Below are positions 34,054 through 38,355 of a stretch of DNA of 64,000 nucleotides, piece by piece. A model generated the notes under the pieces. That model saw nothing but the letters and a program-made list of their open reading frames with translations. It made no database searches and was not told where the DNA came from. Source of the DNA: Psychrobacter sp. M13 (GTDB lineage: Bacteria; Pseudomonadota; Gammaproteobacteria; Pseudomonadales; Moraxellaceae). The stretch covers positions 1,550,001 through 1,614,000 of the forward strand of contig NZ_CP132194.1 of the NCBI RefSeq assembly GCF_030718935.1. The letters run 5' to 3'. Positions within the stretch are counted from its first letter, which is position 1. Every line of letters begins with the position of its first letter. Made by a program: the position numbers and the translations under genes.

Positions 34054-34794
34054 CTAATCCCAATAACCTTTAGGACACTTAGGTAGCTCAACCAAAGTCT
34101 TACGCAGGGCGTCTGCCCACTGATGACGGATAGTATTAAAATACTCATCACGCTCATCAATACGGCGACCCTTGGGGATTTTTAGGCTGTCGTTTTCATA
34201 GAGCATAAAGTCTATCGGCATACCCACAGATAGGTTGGAGTTTATCGTTGAGTCAAACGACAGCATTAGCGCGCGCGCCGCATGTCTAGGATCGGTCTCA
34301 TAATCAATAGAGCGATCAAGGATCGGCTTGCCATACTTGCTCTCACCTAATTGAAAGAATGGCGTATCCTCGGTGGCCTTGATACAGTTGCCCTCACGAT
34401 AAATCTTATATAGCTCAGCAGGCTGACCTTTTATCTGACCGCCCAGCATAAATGAGCTAGTAAATTGACCATCAACATTCGCGTTGGCGACTTGTTTGGC
34501 GTGGTTCATGACATTACGCATGCATTCACCAACCATTTGCGCCGCATCAAATAGGCTCAAGACTGTGTTTAGATTACTCTCAGCACGCTGGTCGATATCG
34601 TTCTGCAATTTGGTAAATACTGCCTGTGAAGTAGCTAAGCTACCTGCGGTTTGGAGTACCATAAAGCGCTCGCCTTCAATACCATAATGATAGAGCTTTT
34701 TGAAGGTTGAGATGTGATCAACGCCAGCATTGGTGCGAGTATCACTAGCGAAAACCATGCCATCCTTTAAACGAACGGCGGCACAATAAGTCAT
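34054..34794 (-). CDS. anbu: Anbu-type proteasome-related peptidase
   Basis: An Ntn-hydrolase of 246 residues in the T1 peptidase family, related to HslV and 20S proteasome beta subunits. The open frame extends to 34854, but I choose the ATG at 34794. It has AAGGG upstream, avoids overlap with the previous gene, and gives the family start MTYCAAVRLKDGMVFASDTRTNAGVDHIST. Removal of Met exposes Thr as nucleophile. It sits in the operon usual for Anbu, with a transglutaminase-like protein and ATP-grasp and alpha-E domains. Physiological substrates are not known to me. Confidence 0.93.
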   Translation of the reverse strand: MTYCAAVRLKDGMVFASDTRTNAGVDHISTFKKLYHYGIEGERFMVLQTAGSLATSQAVFTKLQNDIDQRAESNLNTVLSLFDAAQMVGECMRNVMNHAKQVANANVDGQFTSSFMLGGQIKGQPAELYKIYREGNCIKATEDTPFFQLGESKYGKPILDRSIDYETDPRHAARALMLSFDSTINSNLSVGMPIDFMLYENDSLKIPKGRRIDERDEYFNTIRHQWADALRKTLVELPKCPKGYWD

Positions 34795-34834
34795 AGAAAC
34801 CCTTAGTAATGAACATAAATAAAAATAGCGGACG

Positions 34835-35620
34835 CTATGATAGCCTAGTGACAAGGACTTGACTGTAAAGATTTTCGTAACCGCCGCCCATGCGCACTCC
34901 GCGTACTGGTGCGGTATCTAGATAATCGCGACCGATCGCCACATAGACATGCGAGTTAGGCTGAAACGCTTGGTTGGAGATGTCAAAAGTGTACCAGTAG
35001 CCATCTAAGTAAGCCTCAGCCCACGCATGACTTGCCATGTGGTTTTCGGTATCGTCATATAGGTAACCTGACACGTAACGTGCTGGAATCTGCTTATCAC
35101 GCAGCATACTGATAAACACATGGGTATGGTCTTGACACACGCCCCCTTTAGTGGCAAAAGACTCAGCAGCCGTGGTGCCAACATGGGTTACGTTCTTCAC
35201 AAAAGGCATCTTCATAATCAGCTCATTAGCCATAGTTTTGAGACTATCATGAGTGACATTCTTCAAGAACGGCGCAGCGAAGTCGCGCATCTCTTGTGAG
35301 CACTTGGTCAAGGGCGTCTGCACTGTAAATAGCAAATAGGGCACATGATCCATGTCTTGTAGGCGCTCAGTATCGGTATCGATTTCGACGATGCCTGAGG
35401 CTTGCATCTGTAGGTTATTGTGTGCCTCGTTACGACTCAAGGTGAGCCAATCATTACCAAAACCATCCTTTTGATTGGTGGCCACTTTGGGTAGCATAAC
35501 ATCCCAGCGGTGAATAACTTGATGGGATAGCTGCATAGGCGTCATACGGATATACTGCACACTACGCTGCGCCAGCTCATCGTAATAGTAATTGGTTTGA
35601 TGACTGATTTGAAGTTTCAT
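34835..35620 (-). CDS. Transglutaminase-like cysteine protease
   Basis: A 261-residue cytoplasmic protein: an N-terminal bacterial transglutaminase-associated domain (about 1-80) followed by a transglutaminase core. The triad is clear: C162 in GGVCQDHTH, H198 in ASHAWAEAYL and D213 in YTFDISN. Such proteins are predicted to cut or form isopeptide or amide bonds. It is the middle gene of the leftward operon, 74 bases after the ATP-grasp/alpha-E gene and 40 bases before the Anbu start. AGGAAGAG lies upstream of the ATG. Confidence 0.92.
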   Translation of the reverse strand: MKLQISHQTNYYYDELAQRSVQYIRMTPMQLSHQVIHRWDVMLPKVATNQKDGFGNDWLTLSRNEAHNNLQMQASGIVEIDTDTERLQDMDHVPYLLFTVQTPLTKCSQEMRDFAAPFLKNVTHDSLKTMANELIMKMPFVKNVTHVGTTAAESFATKGGVCQDHTHVFISMLRDKQIPARYVSGYLYDDTENHMASHAWAEAYLDGYWYTFDISNQAFQPNSHVYVAIGRDYLDTAPVRGVRMGGGYENLYSQVLVTRLS

Positions 35621-35694
35621 AGTCTCTTCCTATTGGTATTTTATTATGTCTTATATATCTGCAGTTTATTCTCTAATCTCATTCATTAAAGTCA

Positions 35695-38028
35695 TTAGAC
35701 ACCTTGACGCAAGATAAGATTGAACTCTTTGCTGATTAAGCCAAAATCACTAAAGCGTTTAGATCTGATCATCTGATTGGTCAGACGGATTAGCTCACGC
35801 CAGCGCGTATTCTCAGGTAACTCATTGATCCAATGCTTAAATTGTAGACTAATTTCCATCGAGTCCTCATCCAGTAATACTGCGCGTTCTAATTGCTCAA
35901 ATTGACGCCCTAACTGCCAAAAGCAAGTCACGGTTGCATGCTCTTGCTTCATAGCAGCATTACAAGCGTACAGCTGTAAGGTGGCAGCACGATAAGTACC
36001 TGCGCTTGAGAGGCGCTTAATTAAGTTATAGAGCTCTGCAGTATCTTTACCTAGTACCCCTTTGGCTTCTTGGACGTTGGCCTCAATCGACTGTATGACA
36101 TTAGGGATGATAGTCTGCTCAAGATTAATCATGATTTGAGCTTTCATAACTTTAAGTGATTCGTCAGCATCAGCTTCAAAGCCTAAATGCGTGATCAGAT
36201 GCTGTACTTGCGATTTTTTGAGATCGCCTTTGATTATCTGTTTCATGATGTTGTCATAATAATAAAGACGCTCACTGTAACGACCAAGCCAAATTAAATG
36301 ACTGGCTGTTGAGAGTAGCAAGATCATAGGCGCATCATCTAAATGCTCATAACCTGCCTCTATAGGCTGCGCACGATCAAAGTATTCGGAGTGACTTGAG
36401 AGGTTTTTTTCAAGCGCATGGTCTGGCTTGCCAGCATTAGTATTAACATTGTCATTGGCACTGCTGTCATCAATAACCCAAGTGTCTTTGATACCACCGC
36501 CCTGCGATGAGTTGACCACCAGTGAGCCTTCAACCATCGCGACACGGGTCAAACCACCTGGTACGATATCTACTGAACCATCGCCGTGACTGAGGATAAA
36601 GGGGCGCAAATCGATATGTCGCGGCGCGATACCATCAGCGACAGCAGTAGGGTTGGTTGAAAGCGAAATCGTCGGCTGCGCAATAAAGCCTGCTGGGTTT
36701 TCAAGTAAGCGAACACGATAGTCTTCAATCTCTTTTTTAGTGGAGGTTGGGCCAATAAGCATGCCATAGCCACCAGAGCCTTGCGTTTCTTTGACTACCA
36801 GCTTATCTAAATTATCTAAGACATATTTGAGCTCGTCTGGTTTACGGCATTGAAAGGTTTGGATATTGGGCAGTATTGGCTCTTCATCCAAATAAAACTT
36901 AATCATATCAGGTACAAAAGGATAAAGACTTTTGTCATCAGCGACACCTGTGCCTGGCGCATTAGTTATGACGACATTGCCAGCACGATAAGCGCTCATC
37001 AGCCCTGATACGCCCAGTATAGAGCTGGACTCAAACGCTAATGGGTCAATAAACGGATCATCGATACGGCGATAGATCACATCGACTTGTACTTTACCGC
37101 GTATGCCTTGCATGTAGACTTTGCTGTCTTCAACCACTAGATCATAACCATGTACCAGTGGCACATTCATCTCATGCGCTAAGAACGCATGCTCGTAATA
37201 AGCACTATTAAATCGCCCTGGGGTCAAGATTACAATTTGCGGATCGTATTTGCTCGTCGAGCTGGCAAGACATTTTTTGAGACGCATCGGGTAATCACTA
37301 ATCCCTAGAATAGGGGTGTGATCGAACATCTCAGATAGTAGCGTCTCAGAGATATTACGGCTCTCCAGCATATAAGAGACGCCAGAGGGCGTGCGCAGAT
37401 TATCCTCTAATACACAAAATGTGCCATCCTCATCACGGATCAAATCAATACCGCTAATATGCGAATAAATAGGCTTATCCAGCTCAATACCCATCATCCA
37501 TGGCTCATAGCAGCCACTAGCATAGACGTAACTATCAGGCACGACGCCTGCTTTCATAATAGCTTGCTCGTGGTAGATGTCATGCAAAAAGGCATTTAAT
37601 GCAGTAATACGCTGCTTACAGCCTTTTTCAATGATCTCCCACTCACTAGCGGCGATAATACGTGGAATAATATCAAAAGGGATCATCCGTTCAATATTCT
37701 TAGCGTCGCTATAAACCGTAAAGGTGACACCCTTACGATAAAAGATATTTTCGGCTTGCTCATTAAGATGATTGAGCGCGTCCATATTGATGGTGTCTAG
37801 CCAATTACCAACGGTTTTGGCGACAGGCCGATACTGACCTTCGCTAATGATTAGCTCATCGAAGCTTGGTTTTTTAGTGGGTTTTTGCGTGTCTTTGCCA
37901 GCGCTTTTAGGACTATTCTTAGTTGCAGCGGCTGTAGATTGACTTTGCTCCTGAGTGCCATTGTCGGCTGAAGTTTGAGTATCTGTTGCAGATTGAGTCT
38001 GTTTTTGAGTTTGGGTCTTTTTATTCAT
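35695..38028 (-). CDS. Fused circularly permuted ATP-grasp ligase and alpha-E protein
   Basis: A 777-residue fusion. After a Gln/Thr/Ser-rich disordered N-terminus (about 1-50) comes a circularly permuted ATP-grasp domain (about 55-540, with VLEDNLRTPSGVSYMLE, TPGRFNSAYYEHAFLA, RIDDPFIDP, KETQGSGGYGM and RHIDLRPF). An alpha-E helical domain (about 555-777, LSTASHLIWLGRYSERLYYYDN) follows. The two are often separate adjacent genes. The start is the ATG at 38028, because GTGAGG lies just before it; the frame is open to 38043. ATP-grasp enzymes ligate carboxylates to amines, so this operon may make and the protease genes may cleave a peptide tag. Confidence 0.92.
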   Translation of the reverse strand: MNKKTQTQKQTQSATDTQTSADNGTQEQSQSTAAATKNSPKSAGKDTQKPTKKPSFDELIISEGQYRPVAKTVGNWLDTINMDALNHLNEQAENIFYRKGVTFTVYSDAKNIERMIPFDIIPRIIAASEWEIIEKGCKQRITALNAFLHDIYHEQAIMKAGVVPDSYVYASGCYEPWMMGIELDKPIYSHISGIDLIRDEDGTFCVLEDNLRTPSGVSYMLESRNISETLLSEMFDHTPILGISDYPMRLKKCLASSTSKYDPQIVILTPGRFNSAYYEHAFLAHEMNVPLVHGYDLVVEDSKVYMQGIRGKVQVDVIYRRIDDPFIDPLAFESSSILGVSGLMSAYRAGNVVITNAPGTGVADDKSLYPFVPDMIKFYLDEEPILPNIQTFQCRKPDELKYVLDNLDKLVVKETQGSGGYGMLIGPTSTKKEIEDYRVRLLENPAGFIAQPTISLSTNPTAVADGIAPRHIDLRPFILSHGDGSVDIVPGGLTRVAMVEGSLVVNSSQGGGIKDTWVIDDSSANDNVNTNAGKPDHALEKNLSSHSEYFDRAQPIEAGYEHLDDAPMILLLSTASHLIWLGRYSERLYYYDNIMKQIIKGDLKKSQVQHLITHLGFEADADESLKVMKAQIMINLEQTIIPNVIQSIEANVQEAKGVLGKDTAELYNLIKRLSSAGTYRAATLQLYACNAAMKQEHATVTCFWQLGRQFEQLERAVLLDEDSMEISLQFKHWINELPENTRWRELIRLTNQMIRSKRFSDFGLISKEFNLILRQGV

Positions 38029-38355
38029 AAATACCTCACGCATCCTTGATAGAGTTATTGACTAAGGACTATAGACTAATAGTGCTGAGTCCTATAGCTG
38101 TTTTAATTGATCACATATCCTATGTCTGACCTCGACTATACCGCGTCTATAGGCTTATGCACAACATGAGTTTGATAATTTAATAACGTTAAAGTTACAA
38201 TCTAAACGATAATTAAAACAATCATTACGAATAATATAAGCACTTGCACGATCATTATCTATAGCTCAATGTCAAAATATACTGATAATAAAGAAGCGCT
38301 ATAAAATCAATGTTAATAAACGTGAATTAAGACAAGTAAAGGGGTAAACGTAACT
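38029..38355. other. Divergent spacer between the Anbu operon and the GDSL gene (327 bp)
   Basis: AT-rich, non-coding, and must hold the promoters of both divergent transcripts. I see no convincing operator, repeat or hairpin. Confidence 0.5.

Follow-up and report, generated by a model that had tools for sequence, protein, structure and literature searches.

Anbu is a relative of the proteasome and has often been considered an early version of it. The description of the gene set that makes up the Anbu operon goes back to Iyer et al. 2009. This set comprises an amide-forming ATP-grasp ligase, a small, helical alpha-E protein, a transglutaminase-like protein and Anbu itself; on the question of what Anbu acts on, the published work reports neither a peptidase activity nor a partner in the excerpts available (PMC6376114, PMC5666114; all papers are cited here from excerpts). 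The operon studied here lies in a window of 64,000 nucleotides (nt) from Psychrobacter sp. M13 (contig NZ_CP132194.1, positions 1,550,001 to 1,614,000; features are numbered by window position, 1–64000). It has the four components of the published operon in the same order, on one strand and with the same catalytic residues, and an earlier, sequence-only reading of this DNA was right to call the domain set a known association (PMC6376114, PMC5666114). It differs in having the ligase and alpha-E in a single polypeptide, where most relatives make them as separate proteins, an alpha-E without the C-terminal third and an additional, disordered head. The four-part association is thus already published; the new part is the fused form with a shortened alpha-E inside an Anbu operon, which was not found in the literature searched, although Iyer et al. 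2009 may show such fusions. A fusion that is stable in a genus and confined to a single clade would identify the two proteins that act together and the third of alpha-E that can be spared. With it, a loose association of four genes becomes a two-domain enzyme open to testing, with two candidate hydrolases for its product.

The solved structure 3n6x, from Methylobacillus flagellatus, is one that we take, by its entry title alone, to be a "putative glutathionylspermidine synthase"; the solved chain of 474 amino acids (aa) has no alpha-E part. Glutathione synthetase, glutathionylspermidine synthetase, YgiC/YjfC and Cp1B have known substrates, are only ~8–14% identical to the ligase and come with neither alpha-E nor Anbu. 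YgiC/YjfC are named as peptide-spermidine ligases in the title of a reference in PMC12568646. The RimK/RimB and Rlo systems (PMC12239564), likened here by description only, likewise pair an ATP-grasp ligase in concept with a peptidase to match but have aspartic proteases where the Psychrobacter operon has Anbu. HslVU and the 20S proteasome work with a partner AAA+ unfoldase, whereas no gene for one is among the three open reading frames (ORFs) of the operon.

The operon runs leftward, and the gene content and order claimed for it agree with the ORF coordinates and with Pfam: ligase, alpha-E, transglutaminase and Anbu, all on the minus strand, an order that many relatives share. The fused chain occupies 35695..38043 as an open frame of 782 aa from the ATG at 38043, from which its residues are numbered here. 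The sequence-only reading chose the ATG at 38028, whose ribosome site, with GAGG at a distance of five bases, is the better of the two; this ATG yields 777 aa beginning MNKK and is probably the start used. After a gap of 74 nt comes the transglutaminase-like cysteine hydrolase (34835..35620, minus strand; 261 aa), recognized by Pfam and carrying C162, H198 and D213. A further 40 nt separate it from Anbu, the proteasome-like Ntn hydrolase (34054..34794, minus strand; 246 aa), in which a Met codon precedes the Thr codon at 34794 and the Thr is exposed after removal of the Met.

The fused chain can be divided into a disordered head rich in Gln, Thr and Lys (residues ~1–56), the circularly permuted ATP-grasp ligase (~57–526), a linker (~527–572) and the short alpha-E domain (35698..36327, residues 573–782), all encoded on the minus strand and delimited by Pfam and an AlphaFold2 model. 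In that model the head has a predicted local distance difference test score (pLDDT) below 50 and the linker is also low; in the numbering of the 777-aa form, which was the one modelled, residues 1–51 and 529–567 lie below 50. The ATP-grasp core, CP_ATPgrasp_2 (PF14403; 36538..37665, minus strand, residues 127–502), is matched by Pfam with an expectation value (E) of 1.2e-150 and 3n6x matches the ligase at 2.4e-170; neither the ligase chain nor Anbu had a match in NCBIfam. The ligase model is nearest to 3n6x, followed by glutathione synthetases and glutathionylspermidine synthetase, so that the ligase identity proposed earlier is supported for the predicted fold but not for the reaction. At least 82 of 83 ligase rows keep K418, the run G424 G425 Y426 G427 M428, the group E213 D214 N215 R217 and likewise D369 D370 K371, H476 D478 R480 and K519 D520, whose roles we infer.

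The alpha-E domain is a shortened member of its family, with ~200–210 residues as compared to ~310 in the usual form (full length, ~290–310). An alignment of 50 alpha-E sequences places the loss in the C-terminal third, where columns ~300–400 are largely absent, and the best Pfam Alpha-E stretch in the fused chain correspondingly covers model positions 5–161 of 294. The Pfam match itself, at residues 579–721, has E 5.1e-4 and 20.3 bits, just below the cut-off of 20.8; in the genome-wide search it scores 22.6 bits, which is above it. Comparison of the fused with the long alpha-E profile gives E 1.4e-5 and a probability of 80% over 100 columns, and iterated profiles connect the fused, short and long forms. 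W585, R592, G712 and E716 are invariant across the 50 aligned sequences, and W585, R588, R592, N656, F708, G712 and E716 are present in all 46 fused chains. Modelled alone, the domain reaches a pLDDT of 94.1 and a predicted template modelling score (pTM) of 0.90.

That the fusion is real, as the sequence-only reading proposed, was examined in 80 Psychrobacter genomes, of which 44 bear the ligase gene (G numbers denote sampled genomes, L numbers loci and g numbers genera of the family sample). One intact, stop-free frame spans both domains in 42 of the 44, and a second genome of the species (G031) has the fusion in the same frame, with identity shown as 100%. G018 has a single frame from which ~38 ligase residues are missing; in G001 (locus L245) a frameshift lies within the ligase and not at the junction, leaving alpha-E joined to the ligase remnant; and a second copy of the chain in G036 runs off the end of its contig. 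Separate, intact ligase and alpha-E genes occur in none of the 80 genomes. Separate genes in close relatives together with a stop codon in a resequenced copy had been named as what would speak against the fusion. Separate genes are indeed normal in other genera, yet this argument fails because the other genome of the species carries the fusion as well. We reject sequencing error and read-through as explanations of the fusion, since it is kept across the genus, falls in one clade and contains an alpha-E under constraint.

Matches to the chain were present in 129/199 genomes of a family sample, 153/293 of an order sample and 212/398 of a phylum sample, from which selected loci were fetched and their genes classed with iterated profiles. 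The fused form is found in Psychrobacter and in two more genera of the family, g7 and g10; one of the three fused loci of g7 (L090, in G085) has its ligase in two pieces. A separate, short alpha-E (~200–250 aa) is found in g5, g8, g9 (Alkanindiges), g11, g12, g14 and g15 (Acinetobacter), and a separate, long one in g2, g3, g4, g6, g13 and 31 loci outside the family, where some lengths (L139, L140, L165, L168) are inflated by mechanical choice of the start. In a named set, the best 80 of 591 relatives, some of whose records overlap the sampled genomes, the genes are fused in 8/8 Psychrobacter (one of them, L245, broken) and not fused in 9/9 Acinetobacter, 1/1 Alkanindiges and 62/62 others. The claim that the fusion is unusual among Anbu operons therefore stands, with one clade and, in that named set, 8/80 loci, all of them Psychrobacter. 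Outside the family, none of 14 loci among the matches listed for the order and phylum samples, chosen by eye because they had a long open frame or a match that was interrupted by several stops or stretched over a long span, has ligase and alpha-E in one frame; rarer independent fusions may lie beyond the matches listed.

An IQ-TREE tree of 83 ligase domains was used to place the fusion. The 22 fused rows form one clade (support 100/100) nested among relatives with separate genes, and their sister is L092 of g14 (100/99), in which the two genes are separate and overlap by 4 nt (ATGA). A homologue search with the L092 alpha-E as query returned a single protein. The fused and short rows together (51) form a clade (100/99), and the long forms fall outside it. 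These groupings suggest that alpha-E changed from long to short before it became fused, a direction that is favored because the long form is the general one outside the family and that we infer only, the root being the midpoint.

A different fusion occurs in a second type of cluster (L117–L119), where a circularly permuted ATP-grasp ligase is joined to a full-length alpha-E in the same domain order, giving chains of 824–851 aa. Two of these alpha-E domains cover Pfam positions 1–294 of 294 and the third was assigned by profile. The ligases are only ~30–34% identical to the Psychrobacter chain and transglutaminase-like proteins lie alongside, one of which, in L117, is fused to DUF2126. In L117:1913-8686 this DUF2126 and transglutaminase protein (1093 aa) and the fused ligase and alpha-E (827 aa) adjoin an Anbu operon. 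DUF2126 (PF09899) has no match in the genome of Psychrobacter sp. M13. The fusion is a parallel one in a paralogous cluster and no ortholog of the Psychrobacter chain.

The ligase and alpha-E also behave as a unit where they are separate. In the loci with a separate ligase, alpha-E lies no more than 102 nt downstream in 80 of 83 (the region in G122 is counted twice); the overlap is exactly 4 nt in 14 loci and of another length in 31, lengths that depend on starts picked by script. The three misses are a broken fusion (L081), an alpha-E that starts at a contig end (L155) and L157, in which a mobile-element ORF comes next. In L157 the ORF at the expected place of alpha-E, after base 2037, is presumably resolvase-like. 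The pair is tighter than the rest of the operon, since alpha-E is near the ligase in those 80 loci and transglutaminase or Anbu is sometimes absent.

Within the fused gene, rough ratios of nonsynonymous to synonymous substitution (dN/dS) against 12 relatives are 0.018 for the ligase (11 usable pairs), 0.045 for alpha-E (4), 0.34 for the linker (7) and 0.41 for the head (9); as saturated or site-poor pairs were dropped and dS is high, only the contrast between regions counts. Both domains are under stronger constraint than the head and linker. The linker varies from 32 to 60 residues over 46 fused chains, and the former start of alpha-E is still Met in 38 of them and Ile or Leu in 8. Together these features of sequence and gene order point to the ligase and alpha-E acting as one machine, and in Anbu operons at large alpha-E may be a ligase subunit.

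The two remaining proteins appear intact. Pfam identifies Transglut_core (1.8e-17) and Bact_transglu_N (7.8e-15) in the 261-aa protein, and the solved relative 3isr matches it at 8.3e-13. For Anbu, the Pfam Proteasome score is 21.9 bits (1.5e-4) against a cut-off of 22.4, and the solved Anbu structure 5lox matches at 1.9e-78. The catalytic residues named in the sequence-only reading proved near-invariant: C162 is present in 105/106 aligned transglutaminase-like proteins and H198 and D213 in 106/106, and the Thr after Met in 79/80 Anbu rows, with Asp18 and Lys33 (numbered from Met) in 80/80, many rows of both alignments being near relatives. Anbu is the only PF00227 match in the genome, and the same search does detect one in an E. 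coli control; with no other proteasome-family gene, the genome is without HslV.

Within Psychrobacter the operon genes have been lost as a set. The transglutaminase gene is present in the same 44 of 80 genomes as the ligase and as a fragment in G077. Anbu is full length and uninterrupted in 42 of these 44, frameshifted in G043 and reduced to residues 100–246 in G019; five other genomes (G039, G045, G046, G070 and G077) retain remnants only, and 31 of the 80 genomes have no match. A second, distant transglutaminase-like gene (259 aa; C1:260071-260850, or L234:4572-5351) lies in the M13 genome outside the window. It was found (E ≤1e-10) in 26/80 Psychrobacter genomes, namely 25 of the 44 with the operon and G077, which has the remnant, and in 0/35 others, a restriction that may be a clade effect. 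Its neighbors are genes that we take, from their sequences, to be 2,4-dienoyl-CoA-reductase-like and lipoate-ligase-like.

This is an Anbu operon whose ligase and alpha-E became one polypeptide, and we favor, with a probability of about 0.5, the explanation that this enzyme and the two hydrolases take part in a make-and-break cycle. By analogy with glutathione and glutathionylspermidine synthetases, which it probably resembles in action, the chain would activate a carboxylate with ATP and couple it to an amine. Here, alpha-E would probably bind or present one of the two substrates, and its C-terminal third would be dispensable for this function, a point covered by the same joint estimate. The transglutaminase-like protein and Anbu would then hydrolyze amide or isopeptide bonds of the same kind. 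Such a cycle would most likely serve a small peptide or peptide-amine conjugate, perhaps tied to nitrogen supply. A more specific version is doubtful: alpha-E would be the specificity subunit that has been missing for Anbu-operon ligases as a whole, and the chain would make a small peptide-amine or isopeptide store rather than a protein tag. The transglutaminase-like protein and Anbu would dismantle this store when nitrogen is short, Anbu, an ancestor-like proteasome relative, being a dedicated hydrolase of the ligase product and not a general protease. If so, the natural fusion offers, in one chain, a means of finding that product.

Several observations weigh against the make-and-break cycle. 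We know of no substrate for the system. The alpha-E assignment is itself borderline (20.3–22.6 bits against 20.8), the AlphaFold2 model of the whole chain (pTM 0.65) leaves the placement of alpha-E relative to the ligase unsettled, and the co-occurrence counts ignore the relatedness of the genomes. Anbu directly follows alpha-E, with no transglutaminase gene, in 9/80 loci with a separate alpha-E (L096, L117, L136, L151–L154, L156 and L164). Outside the family, 13 of the 31 loci with ligase and alpha-E have no Anbu on that strand within the piece fetched, so that the pair can exist without Anbu nearby. A loose sigma-54 pattern has 0 matches in 38044–38355, upstream of the operon. In addition, pull-downs baited with Yersinia Anbu gave no specific partner, according to the available text of PMC6376114.

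The ligase chain could instead act on proteins, adding an amino acid or short peptide that the transglutaminase-like protein trims before Anbu degrades or deconjugates the target. This hypothesis, reported in PMC6376114 and shared by the sequence-only reading, fits the gene set, the gene order and the intact catalytic residues. It is rather unlikely, as the nearest characterized relatives of the fold make small molecules (functions taken from entry titles and general knowledge), the operon genes include no unfoldase and Anbu was inactive on every test substrate in the published excerpts (PMC6376114, PMC5666114); in the first of these, the Anbu proteins of three species left all substrates tried uncut, and the Yersinia ligase freed phosphate from ATP without a known product. 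The authors of PMC5666114 consider a role in peptide synthesis less likely than one in protein degradation. Their report of an S1 pocket and of inhibitor binding by Anbu is consistent with Anbu being a protease in its own right that needs no ATP, acts on damaged or surplus protein and shares a promoter with a ligase pair engaged in something else. That Anbu is the sole proteasome-family gene in the genome, and is missing from the fetched piece in the 13 extra-family loci noted above, fits as well. We consider an independent Anbu improbable, however, for in the 80 Psychrobacter genomes a full-length, uninterrupted Anbu occurs only alongside the ligase and transglutaminase genes, and outside the family 18 of 31 loci have it further along the same run of genes. 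Finally, Anbu or the transglutaminase-like protein might be a transferase and the operon might build a crosslinked product in two steps. Connectase, a proteasome relative, ligates proteins (PMC8665760), and an enzyme of this kind would account for the absence of hydrolysis by Anbu in the published excerpts (PMC6376114, PMC5666114). Nothing direct speaks for it and the triad of the transglutaminase-like protein would suit a peptidase just as well, making this very unlikely.

The link to nitrogen in the favored make-and-break cycle comes from other species (PMC5666114, PMC5491218), and in marine metagenomes alpha-E and ligase domains are associated with urea-metabolism domains (PMC3597751). The Burkholderia cluster may be of the DUF2126 type rather than the Anbu type, because it contains a large transglutaminase-domain protein. 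For this genome nitrogen control is unsupported, given the lack of a sigma-54-like match upstream of the operon. The window as a whole has 17 occurrences of the loose sigma-54-like pattern TGGYRYNNNNNNTGC as compared to 5.7 expected by shuffling, with 0/100 shuffles as high; a sigma-70 scan gave 11 sites against 11.4 in shuffles and thus no excess.

A special meaning for the Gln/Thr-rich head is not supported. Counted from the ATG at 38043 it has ~60 residues, with 15% Gln, 18% Thr and 15% Lys. In L024 it extends over 90 residues from an MNKK start, in L083 it is a (Ser-Gln)n repeat, and in 5/46 fused chains (L085–L089) it is Gln-poor and only 4–28 residues long. DNA tracts of the Gln-x type occur in 72/80 Psychrobacter genomes, including 30/36 without the ligase gene, with reading frame and gene unchecked; in the pattern, the codons that alternate with those for Gln may also be Cys, Trp or stop codons, and a reversed control matches many genomes too. 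It has no match in the M13 genome. The idea that the head is a Gln substrate of the transglutaminase-like protein is unsupported, given the Gln-poor heads and the frequency of such tracts in the genus. The head is probably fast-changing and incidental, and is treated here as an expanding simple repeat that forms a flexible tail under little constraint.

A scan of flanking genes identified a GDSL lipase-like gene and two transporters. Anti-phage defence models of PADLOC matched none of the three operon proteins (0 families for each, E 0.01). Plasmid copies of the operon were also considered and set aside, as the 117 plasmid records that match the chain are every one below 60% identity. A second operon copy, with a ligase 71% identical, is present on a contig of ~21.7 kb in L185 (G036:C2) and L187 (G013:C28), and is either a true copy or contamination. 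A plasmid origin was rejected for it, as the G036 contig bears ordinary chromosomal-type genes along with transposase-like genes. The latter, which we take from their sequences to be transposase-like, lie beside Anbu.

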